Assembly (NCBI GenBank): GCA_018396865.1
Contig: JAGTRB010000001.1
Span: 62,001 to 126,000 of the forward strand
Reading direction: 5' to 3'
DNA: 64,000 nucleotides
Origin: Candidatus Bathyarchaeota archaeon
Lineage (GTDB): Archaea; Thermoproteota; Bathyarchaeia; TCS64
In this document: in pieces, positions 50,694 through 60,550 of the stretch
Position numbering within the stretch: position 1 is the stretch's first letter
Layout of the letters: each line of letters starts with the position of its first letter
Notes under the pieces: model-generated
What the model was told of the DNA's origin: nothing
Seen by the model: only the letters and a program-made list of their open reading frames with translations
Databases searched by the model: none
Translations under genes and position numbers: made by a program

Positions 50694-51518
50694 TTAAGCT
50701 TCACAGCTCATTATTGTTGTAAACGATAAATATAAATGTATACAAAAGTTTAGGTGGCCAGAATGGGGAGGGATGGATCCCTTTATGCCCAAATTAGGCC
50801 ATAAAGGGATCCCATGGCAGACTGAGCTGAGTTAAAGGAGATTTAAGGCCAACCCTCCTCCAGACTCATCCAAGGCTTTAAGATGTATTTACCATAGAGT
50901 TGGGGGAGGGGGTAGTCCATTCGTGCCTAAATTCAAAAGGGTGATTGTCCTATGGAACCTATGTCCATTCTTTGAATCGTTTTTAGCACTTCTCGCGGGA
51001 TGGGGTTATGTATGAGTCCTACAAGTTTGCATAGTTTTCGGAGGAGGATCCGGTTATCCTCGGTCTTCGAGACGGGCAATCCCGACCTAGCCATCTTCGA
51101 TCACGAGGGCCTCATCTCGATTTAGCCTATAATTAGGCATCTCATCTTTTGATGGGCGTTACACTTGGAGAGCCATTATGACTATTATCTCTTAGAACTT
51201 GTTGGAACCGAGGATGAATATGGGGCTAGAGGATGTATAAAGAAGATCTGCAGGAGCATACCATACTGGAAGAAGCCTGAGAGAAATCATTCTTACTGGT
51301 AAGCTCAAGGAGAAGGGGGTTCGGTAGAGACCTAATGCTCAACTTGCCATTCAGCGTCATGCTCTCTGGAAGGAGCAGAAAGTCTAAGGTGCGTCTGGAA
51401 TAACAGGTTTTAGATATTAAAGGCAGTCTCTGAATGGTCTGAGTTTCAGATTATAAGAGATTTCATTAAATAAAATCGTTCCTATAACTAGAGAGGTTAA
51501 TATCAGGATAATTAGTAT
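50694..51518. other. Gene-free stretch with inverted repeat and worn coding traces
   Basis: About 825 nt. Besides the inverted repeat at 50775-50812 it contains short frames such as YDYYLLELVGTEDEYGARGC and CRSIPYWKKPERNHSYW (around 51178-51302) that look like a decayed gene. I cannot name the family. Confidence 0.4.
50775..50812. repeat. 13-bp perfect inverted repeat
   Basis: GGATCCCTTTATG (50775-50787) and CATAAAGGGATCC (50800-50812) are exact reverse complements around a 12-nt loop. The repeat is upstream of the toxin-antitoxin promoter and could be a transcript end, an operator or a mobile-element relic. Confidence 0.6.
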
Positions 51519-57558: not shown

Positions 57559-58608
57559 TCAATTTTTTCCTCTCCTAAGCTTCACCTGTGTTATATCCTC
57601 AACGGGATCTATGAATCTAACCCTCAACCTCTTATCCGGGGGGACTATCAATCTAGGTCTCCCCAAAACCTCGAATCTATATAGAGTCGATTTATACCAG
57701 TTTATCCCCTCATTCCCCTTCACAGTTATCCCAAGGTCTTCAACGATCCTGTGGATATGATCCTCATAGTTGACCTCACCATAACTCATGGGGTATATGG
57801 AGAACCCCCTTATCACATCCGTCAATAGGCAGTTCATCCTCGAGAGCATCCTCTGAGCCTCAAACCATTTCCTAGGAGAGGCCTCCAGATAGGTCAAACC
57901 TATGTAGCCAGCCCCATCCTCGTGAAGGCAGGCAACCCCCCTGGAGATGAAGGCCCTGAGGCCGCTGAAGGTCTCAAGCGGCTCGGAGGAAAACACGTCA
58001 AACCCCCCGACAAGGTCATCCGGCAGTGGGTCAGCTACGTTGTACTTCCTGAACTCTATGTCGAGGCCATGCCTGGCAGAGACGCTCGTTATGAAGGAGC
58101 CGAGCCTCTCATCGATATCCAAAACTGTTATCCTGGATGGGAGGCCTGTGAGGGATAGGGCTACGCTGAGAAGGTCGTCGTCGCCTAAGAGTATAAAGCT
58201 CCTATCCCTGAGGTCCCCGTAGAGGCTCATGAGGGCGATCCTGGCGACCACCTCCTCCTCCAGCATGTATCCCTGGAAATATCCGGGGTTCGGGGTGGGC
58301 CTATCCTTCACGATGGCTTTGAACTCCTCCACCAAACGCCTGAGCTCCCCATCAAAGAGGATCCCCTTCCCCAGACATCTGGGGCATATCTCCACCCAGG
58401 GTCTGAGGCCTCCCCCACCTATCTCCCTGCGACCCTTCTCGGTGAGGTATAATCCCTCCTCATCAGCCTCAACCATCCCTTCCCGGATCAGTTTCCTGAG
58501 GATCTCGATGAAATCCTTCAATGGAAAGTTTATAGCGTCCAGAAGCTCCCATATGGTTCTCTTCGAGACCGCAAGCTCATCCAGTATTTTTCGCTCCCAC
58601 CTTCTCAT
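57559..58608 (-). CDS. bpsA: N4-bis(aminopropyl)spermidine synthase (branched-chain polyamine synthase)
   Basis: Aminopropyl transferase making branched polyamines that stabilise DNA and RNA at high temperature; 349 residues. An N-terminal winged-helix-like part (about 1-70) and CPRCLGKG (zinc-like) precede the Rossmann core with ILLGDDDLLSVALSLTG (about 140), TVLDIDERLGSF and GGFDVFSSEPLETFSGL. These match BpsA (COG1568/DUF43). It overlaps speD, which supplies decarboxylated SAM, by 32 nt, so the two are an operon. Confidence 0.94.
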   Translation of the reverse strand: MRRWERKILDELAVSKRTIWELLDAINFPLKDFIEILRKLIREGMVEADEEGLYLTEKGRREIGGGGLRPWVEICPRCLGKGILFDGELRRLVEEFKAIVKDRPTPNPGYFQGYMLEEEVVARIALMSLYGDLRDRSFILLGDDDLLSVALSLTGLPSRITVLDIDERLGSFITSVSARHGLDIEFRKYNVADPLPDDLVGGFDVFSSEPLETFSGLRAFISRGVACLHEDGAGYIGLTYLEASPRKWFEAQRMLSRMNCLLTDVIRGFSIYPMSYGEVNYEDHIHRIVEDLGITVKGNEGINWYKSTLYRFEVLGRPRLIVPPDKRLRVRFIDPVEDITQVKLRRGKN

Positions 58609-58951
58609 AGAGGTTCCTCCTGATTACCCTCCTCTCCGCCACCTTGGGCTGAAACTCCTCTACGAGAAGCTCATAGGCTATATGGGCAGGCTCTTCACCC
58701 CCACAGGAGAAGATGTCTAGGGCGACATACCCATACTCAGGCCATGTATGGACGCTGAGATGAGATTCAGCTAGGAGGTATACGGCGGAGACACCGTAGG
58801 GCTCGAACTGGTGGAAGCTTGAGGAGATGGCCCTAAAGCCGGATCTGGAGACAACTCTATCCAGTATCTCCCGGGTCCTCTCCACCCGGGAGATCTTCTC
58901 CTGGTCCACGCCGAGGAACTCGGCGAGGATGTGGATGCCCATATCGAACAC
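58577..58951 (-). CDS. speD: S-adenosylmethionine decarboxylase proenzyme (pyruvoyl)
   Basis: Self-cleaving pyruvoyl decarboxylase that makes the aminopropyl donor for polyamines; 124 residues. The cleavage site is E62-S63 in YLLAESHLSVHTWPEYGY, and C83 lies in LDIFSCGG. Cleavage yields alpha and beta chains with a pyruvoyl group on the new alpha N-terminus. Some crenarchaeal paralogues decarboxylate arginine, which cannot be excluded by eye. Overlaps bpsA; leader carries a hairpin. Confidence 0.93.
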   Translation of the reverse strand: MFDMGIHILAEFLGVDQEKISRVERTREILDRVVSRSGFRAISSSFHQFEPYGVSAVYLLAESHLSVHTWPEYGYVALDIFSCGGEEPAHIAYELLVEEFQPKVAERRVIRRNLYEKVGAKNTG

Positions 58952-59013: not shown

Positions 59014-59246
59014 AGCCTATCCTCTATCCTCATGAACCGATTCGATGAGAAATTATTTTTAAATTTTTTGGTTAAGATGGAAATTATTAGAATGGTAATG
59101 TCATATAAGAATGATGTGAAAAGGCTTAGAGTCGAATATTTCAACAAAATTAGATATATTCATTAATTTATTATTTATTTTGTTCTATCTATCTTTCAGT
59201 CAAATGATTGGAAAAAATTTAAGCGTGTTTTTAAAGCTCTTTGGAT

Positions 59247-59540
59247 ATGACTTCTAAGCCAAACGGATTTATGGGGAAGATTCTCAAGGTAGATCTCTCA
59301 ACTGGAAGATTAAAGGTAGAATCTCTGTCCAAGGAGGTCGCAAAGAAATACCTTGGGGGAAAGGGATACTCCGTATACCTACTCTATAGGTATTTGAAGG
59401 AATTTATCTCCATGGGTATCCATCCTGCTGAGATAGATCTCCTGGGCCCAGAGAATGTTCTAATCTTCTCCACAGGCACGGGCACGGGGATCTCCGTACG
59501 GGGGCATCATGTGATGGCTTTGAGGTATCCCTTAACCCTT
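59247..59540 (+). pseudogene. Aldehyde:ferredoxin oxidoreductase, N-terminal fragment
   Basis: FMGKILKVDLSTGRLKVESL, KKYLGGKGYSVYLLYRYL and LGPENVLIFSTGTGTGISVR are the first ~95 residues of the tungsten AOR family (normally ~600). After MALRYPLTLS the sequence stops matching and passes into the end of the opposite-strand DUF5320-like gene. The rest of the gene, including the W-pterin and Fe-S sites, is absent. It is a truncation relic made by a rearrangement at about 59,540. Confidence 0.75.
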
Positions 59541-59804
59541 TCCAAGCATAGATCTCAGTTCCCTTATTCTCGCCTCTACGTCGCTGATCTCCCTCTCCAG
59601 CCCAGCCCTCTCCTCTTCCAACATCTTCTTATAGTCCTCTAGGGCCGCCAACTCCTCCTCAGGAGATTGAGGCGGAGCCGGTGGACCCATCGGAGGGAGG
59701 TAGATGTAGGGATAGGTATATGGTGGAGGGTAGGCGTACATGCCAGGATAAGGGGGATAGAGATACCAGTATTGGTATCTCCTCATCCTCCTTGGCCAAG
59801 ACAT
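59532..59804 (-). CDS. DUF5320-like small Tyr/Pro-rich protein with coiled coil
   Basis: 90 residues. The N-terminal half is Tyr/Pro-rich (YWYLYPPYPGMYAYPPPYTY) and the C-terminal half is a coiled coil (EELAALEDYKKMLEEERAGL and on to VEARIRELRSML). That is the layout of DUF5320 proteins that occur with DUF134 regulators. The last codons (LGKG and stop) are antisense to the AOR fragment, so the native 3' end may have been replaced. It is the last gene of the minus-strand run. Confidence 0.7.
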   Translation of the reverse strand: MSWPRRMRRYQYWYLYPPYPGMYAYPPPYTYPYIYLPPMGPPAPPQSPEEELAALEDYKKMLEEERAGLEREISDVEARIRELRSMLGKG

Positions 59805-59822: not shown

Positions 59823-60017
59823 CTATCCCATGTAGGGTATTGGTGGAGCTGGGTAGCTCGGCCAGAGGTATGGGGCATAGGCTCCACCGTAGAGGGGGAG
59901 GCCGTACCCTGGACGGGCCCACCACCACCTCGGCAGCCATGGGAACCTGGCGCAGGCCCATTGGCTGGTCGGATATCCCCGGGGCCATCCGCCATATCCC
60001 GCTCCCCTCCCTAGCAT
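59823..60017 (-). CDS. Small Gly/Trp/Tyr-rich protein
   Basis: 64 residues rich in Gly, Trp, Pro and Tyr (GAGYGGWPRGYPTSQWACAR, PRWWWARPGYGLPLYGG). It starts at an ATG directly after the TAG of the upstream small ORF, in the same frame, so the two could once have been one gene. It lies 18 nt before the DUF5320-like gene. Composition fits surface or metal-handling proteins of the DUF5320 type; function unknown. Confidence 0.55.
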   Translation of the reverse strand: MLGRGAGYGGWPRGYPTSQWACARFPWLPRWWWARPGYGLPLYGGAYAPYLWPSYPAPPIPYMG

Positions 60018-60134
60018 CTAACCCGGCCTCTGCCATGGGGGCAGATGGCTGAATGGGCCTCTTCCGGGCCATGCTCCGCTCCAGCCGGTCCATCCTCGGC
60101 CTCTGCCTCTCCAACCCCATGCCATTCCTCTCAT
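60018..60134 (-). CDS. Small Gly/Arg/Trp-rich protein, first of run
   Basis: 38 residues (MRGMAWGWRGRGRGWTGWSG and GPFSHLPPWQRPG). The PFSHLPPWQRPG end is typical of the small proteins accompanying DUF134/DUF5320 loci. Starts at ATG 60134 after a GAGGTGA ribosome-binding site. Too short for most gene callers. It ends in TAG, followed immediately in frame by the next ORF's ATG. Confidence 0.5.
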   Translation of the reverse strand: MRGMAWGWRGRGRGWTGWSGAWPGRGPFSHLPPWQRPG

Positions 60135-60142
60135 TCACCTCA

Positions 60143-60188
60143 ATTTTGTGCTTATTCACGTTTTCAATTATGTGAAAAAACACAAAAT
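60143..60188. promoter_or_regulatory. Paired GTG-N6-CAC operators in a nested inverted repeat
   Basis: ATTTTGTG (60143-60150) and CACAAAAT (60181-60188) enclose TTCAC (60155-60159) and GTGAA (60172-60176), with 4-nt spacers on both sides and 12 nt in the centre: a fully symmetric 46-bp element. It can also be read as two palindromes, GTGCTTATTCAC (60148-60159) and GTGAAAAAACAC (60172-60183), 24 nt apart. It adjoins the shared TATA ATATTTAAA between the small-protein run and the DUF134 gene. Confidence 0.65.
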
Positions 60189-60220
60189 ATTTAAACCTTA
60201 CTCATAAACCCGATAAGGGG

Positions 60221-60550
60221 ATGTGGAGGCACAGGAGGAGGTGCGGAGGGAGAGGCAGAACACCGAAGCCGGTTATGGTAGGGATGGCGCCATCCATCGA
60301 GGGCCTCCAGCCCATCCCGGTGAGAAACCCCGAGCCGATACAGCTGGATATGGCTGAGCTTGAGGCCTTCAGGCTGGTCGACCTAGAGGGACTATCACAG
60401 GAGGAGGCGGGCATGAGGATGGGGATCTCAAGGGGGACCGTTTGGAGGCTGGTTCAGAGCGCGAGGAGGAAGGCGGCACAGGCCCTAAGCGAGGGGAGAC
60501 CCATAGTCATCACCCCTCCAAACTCACAGGTAAACCGCCCCTCTCAATGA
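60221..60550 (+). CDS. DUF134-family DNA-binding regulator
   Basis: 109 residues. RRRCGGRGRTPKPV opens the family. The helix-turn-helix DLEGLSQEEAGMRMGISRGTVWRLVQSARRK (about 64-95) is the sigma-70 region-4-like motif of DUF134 (COG1342). Members are linked to DUF5320 and dinitrogenase iron-molybdenum-type small proteins in archaea and clostridia, suggesting control of metal or Fe-S handling. Here it is divergent from three small DUF5320-type genes, with paired palindromes between. Leaderless start. Confidence 0.88.
   Translation: MWRHRRRCGGRGRTPKPVMVGMAPSIEGLQPIPVRNPEPIQLDMAELEAFRLVDLEGLSQEEAGMRMGISRGTVWRLVQSARRKAAQALSEGRPIVITPPNSQVNRPSQ

Follow-up and report, generated by a model that had tools for sequence, protein, structure and literature searches.

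A palindrome pair between the DUF134 and DUF5320-type genes

Two GTG-N6-CAC palindromes lie between a DUF134 gene and a divergent DUF5320-type gene in an archaeal genome, and we consider it quite probable, from their placement and conservation, that this element is an operator at which DUF134 would repress its own gene and control DUF5320/NifX-type genes of an Fe-S module. The window, the whole 64-kb stretch of DNA that was analysed, is part of a 1.83-Mb metagenome-assembled genome (MAG; G000), to which Candidatus Bathyarchaeota MAGs are the nearest named relatives. Its intergenic element, ATTTTGTGCTTATTCACGTTTTCAATTATGTGAAAAAACACAAAAT, is laid out as ATTTTGTG-CTTA-TTCAC-(12)-GTGAA-AAAA-CACAAAAT and contains both boxes, 24 nt apart (Table 1). 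A preliminary description of this DNA had reported the two boxes and the nested repeat in which they sit, and both are borne out: the 8-nt and 5-nt arms pair exactly, the overall pairing is not equalled by any dinucleotide shuffle of the 99-bp intergenic region, and the pair of boxes is absent from all 20,000 shuffles of that region. The window boxes are slightly degenerate copies, reading ATTCAC and AAACAC where the family consensus has ATGCAC.

Table 1. Features of the intergenic element and its flanking genes, in window coordinates
Feature	Position	Strand	Basis or remark
Second DUF5320-like ORF, aromatic/proline-rich, C-terminal coiled coil	59532..59804	-	PF17253 E 0.023
Divergent DUF5320-type gene, TAG-interrupted at 60018-60020	59823..60125	-	frame open there in L003/L259
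46-bp imperfect inverted repeat with both boxes, 8-4-5-12-5-4-8	60143..60188	.	17/23 pairs; equalled in 0/3000 shuffles
Box 1, GTGCTTATTCAC; family consensus GTGNTTATGCAC	60148..60159	.	same place in relatives
12-bp spacer GTTTTCAATTAT, conserved as NATTCAATTAT	60160..60171	-	column conservation among relatives
Box 2, GTGAAAAAACAC; family consensus GTGATAATGCAC	60172..60183	.	abuts BRE/TATA of DUF134 gene
TATA-like element ATATTTAAA, DUF134 promoter	60187..60195	+	aligns with ATATATAAA in relatives
DUF134 gene, 109 aa, sigma-region-4-like helix-turn-helix (HTH) SQEEAGMRMGISRGTVWRL, basic RGRTPKP arm	60221..60550	+	PF02001

Chance symmetry in intergenic DNA rich in A/T is a highly improbable account of the element, and so is an RNA hairpin or terminator between the divergent genes. 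The base composition would favour chance, as would a second inverted repeat in the window, centred at 50793 (GGATCCCTTTATG ... CATAAAGGGATCC), whose 46-bp span also pairs at 17/23, but the pair of boxes does not arise by shuffling, occurs only once in the window and in the whole genome, and is strongly conserved at orthologous loci, and an element that precedes both divergent genes rather than standing behind a gene is misplaced for a terminator. Further targets within this genome were considered and rejected: the remaining single TGTG-N6-CACA sites, scanned as TGTGNNNANNCACA, all fall within open frames, and no trans copy of the unique pair was found there. Where the preliminary description had seen a single TATA element, the minus strand of the spacer, ATAATTGAA, offers by its position a second candidate, which would serve the divergent gene and leave box 1 between itself and the DUF5320-type gene.

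Conservation at Thermoproteota DUF134 genes

DUF134 genes were located with a local HMM among 61 relatives, 251 genomes of the class and 250 of the phylum, and their upstream regions were then read; the family occurs in 107/251 of the class genomes and 100/250 of those of the window's phylum. The related Thermoproteota proteins, with an SQEEAG..SRGT HTH and an RRGRxPKP arm, are here called clade I. A GTG-N6-CAC box stands within 125 bp upstream of 72 of the 94 clade-I genes and of 12 of 351 other ORFs from the same loci that served as controls, and a pair precedes 29/94 clade-I genes but none of the 351 controls. Recurrence at other DUF134 loci was the test that the preliminary description had set in advance, and the site is conserved with the gene at its own promoter, as would be expected of an autoregulatory operator. 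The consensus is TTTTGTGCTTATGCACA-N11-GTGATAATGCACAGAAATATATAAA, with box 2 adjoining the TATA element, and 35 gap-free operators yield TTTTGTGCTTATGCACATATTCAATTATGTGATAATGCACAGAAATATATAAA. In 45 of 69 relatives the TATA-like element begins 2 nt past box 2; box 1 lies shortly upstream of the divergent gene's ribosome-binding sequence, and at some loci (L018, L019, L024, L025) a third box is found between TATA and start codon.

The spacing of the boxes is 24 nt at 36 loci, 25 at 20, 26 at seven, 23 at three and 28 at three. Since it varies between 23 and 28 nt, neither strict phasing nor symmetry over 46 bp is a conserved property, and the unit that the relatives retain is two 12-bp palindromes. 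The earlier picture of a symmetric 46-bp operator with palindromes about two turns apart thus holds in part: the repeat and the 24-nt distance are present here, whereas the symmetry is not a conserved feature and strict helical phasing is not supported, 24 bp amounting to about 2.3 turns.

Clade-specific spelling of the boxes

On a tree of 141 DUF134 proteins, the sister clade (clade II; SFEEAG..SRNT, with SRN in place of SRG in the recognition helix) carries GTGATATATCAC, often flanking TATA, and a GTG-N6-CAC box is present in 14 of its 23 genes; no such box was found at the 25 genes of clade III, whose arm is GPGRPMKPR. With SRG helices 117 of 126 boxes are GTGC-type, and with SRN helices 18 of 19 are GTGA-type. 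This switch is one evolutionary event on the tree, and it therefore fits direct recognition of the box by the helix without proving it.

Across phyla, the helix was not found to predict the operator in general. Permutation tests over all helix classes, asking for equal operators with equal helix pentapeptides, were negative overall because SRG-type proteins are accompanied by several types of operator, or by none, and we therefore claim no helix-operator code. The only agreeing classes are SQPTF, with GAATATATATTC at three Thermoplasmatota loci (L362, L368, L391) and in two Desulfobacterota, and part of S/ARTTV, with TGACATATGTCA in Thermoplasmatota (L396) and Bacillota. Just upstream of three clade-III DUF134 genes (L086, L087, L053) stands TTTGTGCNTTTGAACAAA / TTTTGTTCGAATGAACA, which may be an alternative site of some members of that clade. 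Four DUF134 genes with an SRKTL helix (L363, L358, L360, L366) have GTTCTCATATGAGTAATATATAGGAA in common, which lies roughly 20-35 bp upstream and may represent yet another type of operator.

Bacterial and other archaeal loci

DUF134 is found in 68/198 Desulfobacterota, in 69/243 genomes of the phylum to which the Methanomassiliicoccales locus L041 belongs, taken as Thermoplasmatota, and in about 190 plasmid records; a scan of viral contigs for bacterial DUF134 and a phage search gave no matches. Related palindromes, TGACATATGTCA and GAGCATATGCTT, overlie or adjoin the promoters of bacterial DUF134 genes. All 12 plasmid-borne loci, from Bacillota, Spirochaetota, Bacteroidota and Pseudomonadota, have a CATATG-centred imperfect palindrome upstream by a criterion shaped on these same loci, with 20 sites in total against a mean of 2.0 and a maximum of 7 in shuffled sequence. 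Applied unchanged and out of sample to Desulfobacterota, this criterion recovers 35 of 72 loci, where shuffled sequences give 5.8 (at most 15), and palindromes accompany 36/73 DUF134 genes of that phylum as compared with 12/177 control ORFs; the tested motif is absent from about half of the Desulfobacterota genes. In a typical case, TTGACAAGTTATGAGCATATGCTTATAAT, the palindrome sits between -35 and -10 and extends to the -10, in Bacillota the -35 itself is part of TTGACATATGTCAA, and several bacterial copies embed a TTGACA -35 or adjoin TATAAT. On Aeromonas and Klebsiella plasmids (L272, L273), DUF134 is paired with a NifX gene, joined in L273 by a PaaI-type thioesterase, and each promoter has two GCATATGC-type sites.

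Copies away from DUF134

A stringent single box, TTGTGNWTATGCACA, has 52 matches in the 251 class genomes and a reversed-pattern control has one. The majority belong to DUF134 genes. Five lie in genomes without a DUF134 match, have neither a DUF134 nor a DUF5320-type gene at the site, are in several cases within frames, and look incidental. Most of the remaining ones stand in front of DUF5320-type genes or Gly/Cys-rich genes resembling them (G232, G062, G045), and for one, in G004, no such target is evident. Box pairs number 56 in the same genomes, and 31 of them have a DUF134 gene no more than 800 bp away. Among the remainder, one pair led to a detached DUF5320-type gene in G022 (G022:C406) at which three boxes flank the TATA element; the others are, as judged from their sequences only, mostly G+C-rich and unlike the consensus. 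The same site is therefore present at DUF5320-type or Gly-rich genes in G022, G232, G045 and G062, and because these further copies precede detached DUF5320-type genes, the site would act in trans. At L205:1960-2048, the TATA of a detached DUF5320-type gene is flanked by three boxes, TTTTGTGCCATTGCACAATACTTATATATTTTTGTGCGATAACAC...GTGCATAAACAC. A 146-aa Cys/Gly-rich protein without an NCBIfam match is encoded right behind a consensus box at L247:2128-2568, and its gene is a possible further member of the regulon.

That the sites also serve DUF5320-type genes with no DUF134 gene nearby is what would be expected if the palindromes were the operator of another, unlinked transcription factor, for which DUF134 is merely a target. 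We regard this as improbable: the sites follow DUF134 genes through several phyla of archaea and bacteria, in spellings that depend on the clade, no convincing sites were found in the examined genomes that lack a DUF134 match, and DUF134 is itself an HTH protein. The preliminary description's proposal of a DUF134 operator with autoregulation is supported by the conservation of the boxes, by the way they follow the clades, by the copies at DUF5320-type genes and by the bacterial counterparts, and DUF134 remains our candidate for the protein that binds them.

The DUF134 protein

The window regulator belongs to the DUF134 / UPF0251 / PRK04217 family, matching PF02001 over residues 10-98 (E 1.5e-21; 77.2 bits, cut-off 27), while its score against NF003257 (99.3 bits) is below the cut-off of 115. 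Its AlphaFold model has a pLDDT of 82 overall and a mean above 90 over the HTH (residues ~40-91), with the basic arm less certain, and R71 and R76 of the recognition helix are among the invariant residues. The HTH fold is sigma-region-4-like, the nearest solved folds being sigma region 4 domains and the DeoR DNA-binding domain at weak Foldseek E-values of 0.05 or worse; a sequence search of solved structures returned no DUF134 member and only sigma/DeoR HTH similarity. From its RGRxPKP or GPGRPMKPR sequence, we infer that the arm resembles an AT-hook. The window protein has its nearest folds in sigma-70 region 4 and ECF sigma domains, to which it also shows weak sequence similarity, but it has only 109 aa, lacks region 2 and resides in an archaeal host. 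Its putative site, moreover, is not a single -35 hexamer but a 12-bp palindrome, which implies a dimer. The open-access literature searched yielded neither an operator nor a regulon of the family, no paper on its function was evident by title or abstract, and the matches listed for the motif strings included no regulatory paper on DUF134 or DUF5320 genes.

DUF5320-type genes and the Fe-S gene neighbourhood

The divergent gene most likely starts at 60125 on the minus strand. Its TAG, at a place where the frame is open in same-genus relatives, points to a gene that has decayed or else to an error of assembly; pyrrolysine read-through was rejected, since the genome has no PylS and only a sub-cut-off aminoacyl-tRNA-synthetase match. 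The portion at 59823-60017 has no match to PF17253 and the second ORF reaches 16.3 bits, under the cut-off of 27, whereas the equivalently placed gene of a relative (L255:7415-7684) clears it at 30.1 bits; the ORFs of the window are therefore named no more than DUF5320-type.

Related genomes have a NifX-type gene after DUF5320 and, nearby, genes for an Mrp/NUBPL NTPase, NifU_N, NifX and a MinD/ferredoxin ATPase, and among bacteria DUF134 genes adjoin NifX-type or Mrp genes or form fusions with them. DUF134 and DUF5320 genes thus travel with NifX-type, Mrp/NBP35, NifU-type and MinD/ferredoxin ATPase genes, and because of this NifX/Mrp/MinD context the regulated process is probably Fe-S or metallocluster handling. 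The window itself cannot be aligned at 59083-59553 with same-genus L259, which has a NifX-type gene there (L259:5978-6319); that gene is replaced in the window by an ORF at 59241-59642 with an AFOR_N match (aldehyde ferredoxin oxidoreductase N-terminal). Further along, at 57559-58951 (minus strand), an S-adenosylmethionine decarboxylase gene lies beside a branched-chain polyamine synthase (BpsA) gene, plausibly a polyamine operon.

With its Mrp/NUBPL P-loop NTPase, NifX-type domain and MinD-type ATPases with ferredoxin domains, the neighbourhood recalls the MrpORP/orange-protein (Orp) Fe-S module, for which a link to the biogenesis of Fe-S clusters in anaerobes has been described (PMC6345978). 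The genes here are separate, unlike MrpORP, and the match of 347 bits is below the MrpORP cut-off of 450. No DUF134 regulator for MrpORP was found in the literature search.

Proposed mechanism

A DUF134 dimer would most likely sit on each 12-bp palindrome through its sigma-region-4-like HTH, with the basic RGRxPKP arm possibly reaching into the flanking A/T minor groove. Because box 2 abuts the BRE/TATA of DUF134, its occupancy should block TBP/TFB and repress the DUF134 gene; because box 1 separates the DUF5320-type gene from its candidate TATA element, occupancy there should repress that gene as well. Given that DUF134 and DUF5320 travel with Fe-S genes, a metal, Fe-S or redox signal would presumably relieve the repression.

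It is possible, though unlikely, that DUF134 acts from the boxes as an activator, recruiting TBP/TFB in archaea or RNA polymerase in bacteria. The position of box 2 just upstream of BRE/TATA is one that archaeal activators also use, but activation does not sit well with third boxes placed downstream of TATA and ahead of the start codon in some relatives, or with bacterial boxes over the -35 or beside the -10, both of which point to repression. Provided that DUF134 binds, repression is thus the probable outcome judging by this geometry. Archaeal autorepressors of the Lrp/AsnC, MarR and TrmB types act at BRE/TATA, with palindromes that abut or flank their own and divergent promoters. The palindromes described here resemble theirs in abutting or flanking the BRE/TATA of DUF134 and of the divergent gene, but DUF134 is of an unrelated family and has a different site, pairs of GTG-N6-CAC. 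In kind, the candidate is an ordinary autoregulatory operator, and it is new for the DUF134 family within the literature searched.

A wider scenario, to which we give an even chance, is that DUF134 proteins are bacterial-archaeal, stand-alone, sigma-region-4-like autorepressors that read 12-bp palindromes at core promoters, often with a CATATG core and with outer triplets varying by clade, and that place a conserved NifX/Mrp/DUF5320 metallocluster module under an Fe-S or redox signal. DUF134 is widespread and, within the literature searched, uncharacterised, and a concrete candidate operator makes its DNA binding, its regulon and its signal directly testable. The reach of the candidate over archaea and bacteria makes it worth testing, as it would connect DUF134 with Fe-S/metallocluster genes in anaerobes, and the related 12-bp sites with their clade-specific outer bases offer a natural set in which to trace how an HTH of the sigma-region-4 kind became a reader of palindromes.
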